Shown one piece after another: positions 260 through 4,742 of a stretch of DNA of 10,329 nucleotides. This DNA is from Thermoproteota archaeon (lineage in GTDB: Archaea > Korarchaeota > Korarchaeia > Korarchaeales > Korarchaeaceae): positions 1-10,329 of the forward strand of contig QMVU01000016.1 of NCBI GenBank assembly GCA_003661265.1. The letters run 5' to 3'. A program made the position numbers and the translations under genes. The notes under the pieces are model-generated. The model was given only the letters and a program-made list of their open reading frames with translations, was not told the origin of the DNA and ran no database searches. The stretch's first letter is position 1. The number at the start of each line of letters is the position of its first letter.

Positions 260-1711
260 TTACCCCTTGACAACGCCTATCGGAACCATTCTCACAGCCA
301 GTCTTGCAATGCCAGCCTTGTGCGTCGAAATGGCCACTTCATCAATATCCTTGTAAGCTCCGGGAGCTTCTTCGGCAGCTACTTTTAGCGAAGCTGGTTT
401 CACAATTATTCCCCTTTGGGCCAACTTGGATACTACATCGCTTCCTCTCCACCTTCTAACCGCTGCGTTCCTGCTTAATACCCTTCCAGCGCCATGAGCG
501 GCAGAGCCAAAAGATTCCTCCATCGCTTTCTTTGTGCCAAACATTAGGTAAGATGCTGTTCCCTGAGATCCAGGAAGAAGGACCGGCTGACCTGTCTCAC
601 TATAGTCTTTCGGGATATATGGGCTACCAGGAGGGAATGCACGAGTTGCTCCTTTTCTATGCACAAAAACTTCTACTTCTTTTCCGTCTACTGTATGTCT
701 CTCACGCTTCGCAATGTTATGAGCGACATCATATACTAGTTTCATCCCAAGTTCCTCAGGAGAAGTTCCGAAAACCTGGGCAAAGGCCTCTCTAACCCAG
801 TGTGTTATCATCTGTCTGTTAGCCCAAGCGTAATTTGCGGCGCCCTTCATAGCTGAGAAGTACTGCATAGCCAGTTTTGATGTGGTGTAGGCGCATATAA
901 GCTGCCTATCGGGCAAACTAAAGTCTAGTTTATTGAGATTCCCCATCATAAGTTTTAGATAATCGCTCGCTACCTGATGTCCAAAGCCCCTGCTTCCGGT
1001 ATGAACCATGACAGTAACTTGACCTTCATGGGTTATGCCAGCTGCTTTTGCAAGCCTCTCATCATAGATCTTGTCCACTATTTGAACTTCTAAGAAGTGA
1101 TTTCCACCCCCTCATGTTCCAAGCTGTGGTCTTTGCCTCTCCTTTGCTCTTGAGCTAATTACTGATGGATCTGCGCCCTCCATTCCTCCCCTCTCCTCAG
1201 TATGCTCAAGATCCTCCTCCCAGCCATATCCGTTTTCTACGGCCCACTTTGCTCCCATAGATATGACGTCATTCAACTCAGCGGCACTTAGCCTTAACTT
1301 CCTAGCCCTGCTCCCTAGACCAGAAGGAACTTTTTGAAATAGTGTGTTTACCAGTTCTTTTAACTTCGGTCTTACGTCTTTCTCGCTTAAATTCGTTCTT
1401 AATAGCCTAACTCCACAATTAATATCAAAACCAACCCCTCCTGGGCTTATTACTCCGTCATGAGCGTCAAAAGCAGCTACTCCACCTATAGGAAATCCAT
1501 AACCCCAATGGATATCTGGCATAGCTATGGAGTACTTGTATATTCCTGGAAGCATGGCTACATTAGCAACCTGATCAATTGCACCTCTCTCTATTTGGCT
1601 AATGATCTTTTGAGTACCAATTATAAGTCCTGGAACGCGCATTCCCCTCTTATAGTCCTTAGGTAGAAGCCAGTGTACTTCATCTATCTTCTTTAGAAGT
1701 CGCATCACCAT
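260..1711 (-). CDS. rtcB: RtcB, tRNA-splicing RNA ligase, interrupted by one in-frame TGA
   Basis: RtcB joins 2',3'-cyclic phosphate (or 3'-phosphate) and 5'-OH RNA ends using GTP and Mn2+, and seals tRNA exons after intron removal in archaea. Read through position 1114-1112 (TGA, residue 200), the frame gives 483 residues, the family's usual length (about 481). Catalytic residues are all visible: D96 and C99 in [10 protein letters not shown]204 and H205 in GGGNHFLE, H237 in [10 protein letters not shown]331 in [10 protein letters not shown]406 (guanylylated His) in GSAAHGAGR, and K482 in the terminal VVKG. The N-terminal piece is 1112-1711 (199 residues) and the C-terminal open frame resumes after the TGA in the same phase. 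The ATG at 1711 has a good GGTGAT Shine-Dalgarno (1718-1723). No intein is present. The TGA could be a real nonsense mutation, a recoding event or a sequencing error; see findings. Confidence 0.92.
1112..1114 (-). other. In-frame TGA codon within rtcB (residue 200)
   Basis: Reading the minus strand, the codons are CTT GGA ACA TGA GGG GGT GGA AAT CAC. This is the conserved Gly-Thr-Leu-Gly-(Ser/Gly)-Gly-Asn-His segment of RtcB, with TGA where the family has Leu. There is no frameshift: the two halves are in the same phase. No ATG, GTG or TTG lies in frame between the TGA and the GTG at 1078, so re-initiation would give a C-terminal fragment lacking the Asn-His metal/GTP ligands. Confidence 0.95.
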
Positions 1712-4646: not shown

Positions 4647-4742
4647 TGGGCCCGCCGGGACTTGAACCCGGGACCTCCCGGTTATCAGCCGGGCGCTCTT
4701 GACGCTACATATTATCGCTCTGCCAGGCTGAGCCACGGGCCC
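4647..4742 (-). tRNA. tRNA-Ile (anticodon GAT) with a 22-nt non-canonical intron
   Basis: The minus strand gives acceptor GGGCCCG/CGGGCCC with discriminator A, D stem GCTC/GAGC with a 9-nt loop AGCCTGGCA, anticodon stem CCCGG/CCGGG around CTGATAA (anticodon GAT at 4686-4684), variable loop AGGTC and T stem CCGGG/CCCGG with TTCAAGT. The gene is 96 nt long, and removing 22 nt between the D arm and the anticodon arm gives a standard 74-nt tRNA. CCA is not encoded. A strong TATA box lies 27 nt upstream, and the PIN gene follows after 23 nt. Confidence 0.95.
4698..4719 (-). other. Predicted 22-nt intron in tRNA-Ile, near the D-stem 3' strand
   Basis: The pentamer GAGCG occurs at both ends of the insertion (4720-4716 and 4698-4694), so the cut sites are ambiguous by up to 5 nt. 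The phase given here produces the best relaxed bulge-helix-bulge: GCG pairs with CGC, with identical 3-nt AGA bulges on both strands and a short outer helix CTGG/CCGG with one extra base. Excision within AG|A at both sites yields a normal tRNA. The central helix has three good pairs plus an A-G mismatch, so the exact boundaries are inferred. Confidence 0.6.

Follow-up and report, generated by a model that had tools for sequence, protein, structure and literature searches.

An in-frame TGA in an archaeal rtcB gene, probably a local consensus error of the draft assembly

Introduction

How should a ligase gene be read whose frame continues intact past a single internal stop codon? This question is raised by rtcB, an RNA ligase gene (PF01139) of 483 codons at 260..1711 on the minus strand of the window, i.e., the whole stretch of DNA analysed here, which with its 10,329 bases is the entire contig C16 of a draft genome in 294 contigs and 71% complete. 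Draft metagenome assemblies are known to yield false pseudogenes. The archaeal recoding cases named in excerpts of two articles are selenocysteine, pyrrolysine and a −1 frameshift of alpha-L-fucosidase (PMC8211752, PMC8037382), and nothing on a TGA at this site of rtcB has been evident from the titles and abstract openings of the papers listed. A preliminary description of the locus had offered stop readthrough or recoding, a very recent nonsense mutation and a base-call error as explanations. The tests reported below lean to an error or a recent mutation, and recoding has gained no positive support from them.

The Interrupted Gene and Its Site

The TGA is codon 200 of rtcB (1112..1114, minus strand), and over all 483 codons the frame contains neither a frameshift nor any other stop, exactly as first described, so that the RtcB frame is interrupted at this one codon. 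With an X placed at the TGA, the translation spans profile positions 1-426 of 426 of Pfam PF01139, reaches 589.2 bits compared with 587.4 bits for the database relative P0002, and matches PDB 1uc2 with an E of 9e-197. In its full length and its catalytic residues it is like the RtcB tRNA ligase (PF01139; P. horikoshii PH1602, PDB 1uc2, 4dwq). D96, C99, N204, H205, H237, H331, H406 and K482 have all been kept, and the claim of intact catalytic residues, from which this list is taken, holds at all eight positions. The window copy differs from the known ligase by the in-frame TGA and by unusual residues at 193 and 202.

The site has been compared in 110 loci covering it, which correspond to 106 distinct sequences including the window, one source set being the best 80 of 368. 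Within this set, codon 200 is a sense codon in all 105 other distinct DNA-derived sequences (Leu in 102, Ile in two, Val in one), and no stop occurs at the site in the 109 other loci; the sister genome has a plain TTG. All 129 aligned proteins of 465-520 residues carry Leu at this position, and the TGA is thus found in place of a conserved Leu, as had been claimed.

Two nearby codons, absent from the preliminary description, are odd as well. Codon 193 (1133..1135, minus strand) is CAA and gives Gln for Gly, while codon 202 (1106..1108, minus strand) is GGT and gives Gly for Ser. In the same set, with its best 80 of 368, the 105 others have at 193 Gly in 103, Ala in one and Glu in one, and at 202 Ser or Ala in 104 and Gly in one. 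Regarding the 173 alignment columns that hold at most two kinds of residue in the 129 proteins, the window shows an unseen residue in no more than three, namely 193, 200 and 202. Three such columns drawn at random would fall within a ten-codon span with P ~0.002, by a test devised after the cluster had been noticed. When each of the 129 proteins has been left out in turn, the mean number of departures from invariant columns is 0.14, with none in 116 of 129 and a maximum of four in P0116. At columns conserved to at least 90%, the window deviates also at 136, 379, 456 and 472, all in common with the sister, and furthermore at column 138, where letters exist in three proteins only. Judging from these alignments, we regard the odd residues at 193, 200 and 202 as a patch and not as a stop alone.

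The nearest relative among those compared is the same-genus sister genome G001, whose RtcB is 91% identical; the nearest full-length RtcB relatives among the matches listed are 86-91% identical. Relative to the sister, 45 codons are changed in meaning (the stop counted) and 215 are synonymous changes, with a dN of 0.055 and a dS of ~3, which is near saturation. On the two sides of the stop dN is alike, at 0.056 and 0.054, and an old pseudogene has been rejected on this ground. Outside the patch, rtcB looks constrained by these substitution counts. The P0002 cluster contains 19 sequences, and an allele from the same population with a sense codon at 200 may be among them.

Quality of the Draft Assembly

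We consider it probable, reasoning from the sequence, that the TGA is a local consensus error in the draft metagenome assembly, because it occurs in one contig only, the rest of rtcB is constrained, the odd residues lie clustered around the stop, the draft contains further broken genes, and the recoding parts sought have not been found. The locus resembles the false pseudogenes of draft metagenomes in having a single lesion in a constrained gene on one contig, with other lesions elsewhere in the draft, and differs from them in the two unusual missense residues beside the stop. Following this reading, the living population would probably have an ordinary sense codon at 200 and would probably make normal full-length RtcB, and raw reads would be expected to show the sense codon.

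The other lesions have been counted by comparing ORFs of 60 of the 294 contigs (38% of the bases) with stretches of the sister genome. Among 207 matched ORFs, three have an internal stop (rtcB included) and four a frame break, one ORF having both; in the reverse direction, internal stops have been found in five and frame breaks in two of 209 ORFs of the sister. An earlier comparison with other thresholds gave three internal stops and three frame breaks in 223 matched ORFs. The draft of the window is thus not singular in its rate, the sister having about as many such ORFs, some of which, in the two drafts, are probably not genes; both points count against an error. A frameshift next to a run of T divides carS (CDP-archaeol synthase) in the draft of the window, at 100-550 of L149 (G000:C28). 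Contig C51 ends in a further piece of carS, so that carS may be present in more than the one broken copy, and this too weakens the case for an error. These comparisons show that broken genes are not rare in such assemblies, the rate being alike in the two drafts. Also counting against a consensus error, nothing indicates poor coverage of the contig, Gly at 202 has one precedent in the 105 sequences and 193 varies in two (the set again including the best 80 of 368), and P0116, departing at four invariant columns, demonstrates that such departures do occur.

Copy Number of rtcB and the Need for a Ligase

A genuine nonsense mutation of very recent origin in the strain, after which RtcB would be lost or replaced by an unassembled copy or another ligase, is unlikely, though worth taking seriously. 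A young lesion would leave the remainder of the gene undamaged, and apart from the TGA rtcB indeed has neither another stop nor a frameshift. One rtcB only is found in the draft genome and one contig only spans the TGA site; a second rtcB, the search for which had been proposed at the outset, and a second contig over the site have both been looked for in the draft and not found. With 71% completeness, the assembly could lack a second copy. Against this, the extra rtcB hits in genomes of the family look, from the table of hits only, like parts of a single gene divided by contig ends or a large insert, and a second copy would therefore be unusual. Moreover, several tRNAs in the draft have inserts resembling introns, so that a ligase is probably needed, and one mutation does not explain two more odd residues beside the stop.

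Some further observations concern rtcB in other genomes. In G016, G018, G019, G023, G047, G055 and G059, for example, RtcB frames of ~950-1000 codons are enlarged by a long insert at about profile position 50, perhaps an intein; inteins are known in RtcB. In G025, a relative of the same class, the rtcB match (G025:C181:2538-3718) consists of two pieces that overlap, a TGA being reported for each, and looks like a frameshift. In one archaeal genome, G029, which is 98% complete, no RtcB has been matched at E 0.001.

Regarding the tRNA genes, the window carries a tRNA-Ile(GAU)-like gene at 4647-4742 on the minus strand, which has been missed by ARAGORN and has an Rfam match at 4653-4709. An insert of ~22 bases, flanked by GAGCG repeats, separates the D arm from the anticodon stem and is probably an unusually placed intron; the ends, the tRNA identity and the intron itself are our own reading of the letters. 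Two tRNA-Leu(taa) genes of equal score on different contigs (G000:C74:1530-1614 and G000:C123:2998-3082) are possible strain duplicates in the draft.

Decoding of UGA

Very unlikely, in our estimate, is a programmed readthrough or recoding of the UGA that yields full-length RtcB, with the inserted residue being accommodated through the changes at 193 and 202. The frame continuing without other defect, the kept catalytic residues and the position of both odd residues near the site would be in line with it, and so would the statement, in an excerpt of a review on recoding, that most interrupted archaeal genes are functional (PMC8211752). With the archaeal recoding cases, as far as the excerpts describe them, rtcB shares a stop-interrupted coding frame; it differs by the Leu site, by Sec parts sought and not found, and by relatives without a stop at this site.

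UGA is a frequent terminator, which speaks against recoding, and a change of the genetic code has been rejected for the same reason: when ORFs of 100 aa or more whose stop is visible are taken from 60 contigs, TGA is the terminator in 224 of 535, a count of greedy ORFs of which some are perhaps not genes. Within the window it terminates the small zinc ORF, rps27ae, rps24e, spt4, the DUF763 gene and pheS, the six neighbours from which it had been concluded that UGA is not reassigned, and this conclusion stands.

Selenocysteine is without support. The preliminary description had suggested a search for Sec parts or a UGA suppressor tRNA, and none of the parts sought has been found, these absences being limited by the 71% completeness of the genome. 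SepSecS is absent from the window's genome and from 23 other genomes searched in the phylum, and present in three more distant archaea; a tRNA-Sec above the cut-off is absent from the window's genome. A UCA anticodon is absent from its 32 tRNA hits, among which four genes with an insert have been read at the first two anticodon bases only, each starting with G. Among 31 relatives, G025 is the sole one with a tRNA-Sec match above the cut-off, and ARAGORN reads it as tRNA-Ser(TGA). The UGA aligns not to Cys or Sec but to Leu in 102, Ile in two and Val in one of 105 homologues (set including the best 80 of 368), and that the replaced residue is Leu also speaks against selenocysteine. Further evidence against recoding comes from the RNA fold around the TGA, which is no better than in shuffles (z 0.80 and −0.10), and from the TTG of the sister. 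The release factor aRF1 has not been found in the 71% complete genome, while it has been matched in all 12 relatives searched, the sister having a contig-edge piece only, below the cut-off; we read its absence as incompleteness of the assembly. The narrower proposal, that a readthrough system lacking selenocysteine parts decodes one UGA in RtcB and that the residues beside it have adapted, is extremely improbable.

Truncated and Split Forms

A working RtcB in two pieces, one of residues 1-199 and the other restarted at GTG 1078, has next to no probability, since the restart drops Asn204 and His205 and no stop occurs at the site in the other 109 loci (set including the best 80 of 368), even though each piece still matches the RtcB family of Pfam strongly, with 189.6 and 349.5 bits. 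The first in-frame ATG, GTG or TTG past the TGA is the GTG of codon 212 (1078), and the restarted ORF of 272 aa (260..1078, minus strand) is therefore without N204 and H205. The ORF check agrees with the original statement that no start lies between the TGA and GTG 1078 and that a split form would lose the Asn-His pair, and the rejection of a split enzyme drawn from it is upheld. His205 aligns with His203 of P. horikoshii RtcB, which, according to an excerpt of a published study, binds one of two Mn2+ ions (PMC10630183). For the N-terminal part of 199 codons (1115..1711, minus strand), the only 100% match among those listed is the window's own entry and the next match is at 73%; among the best 120 of ~8,000 scored, this truncated form comes from no other contig, and the C-terminal part has nothing above 65%. 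In both searches, length limits hide full-length relatives.

Implications

If the UGA were read through, rtcB would represent archaeal recoding beyond selenocysteine, pyrrolysine and the −1 frameshift, the cases that the excerpted articles name (PMC8211752, PMC8037382). Under the preferred reading of a probable consensus error, the locus carries a caution: where an important gene in a fragmented draft shows a lone in-frame stop, the reads should be consulted before recoding is proposed.
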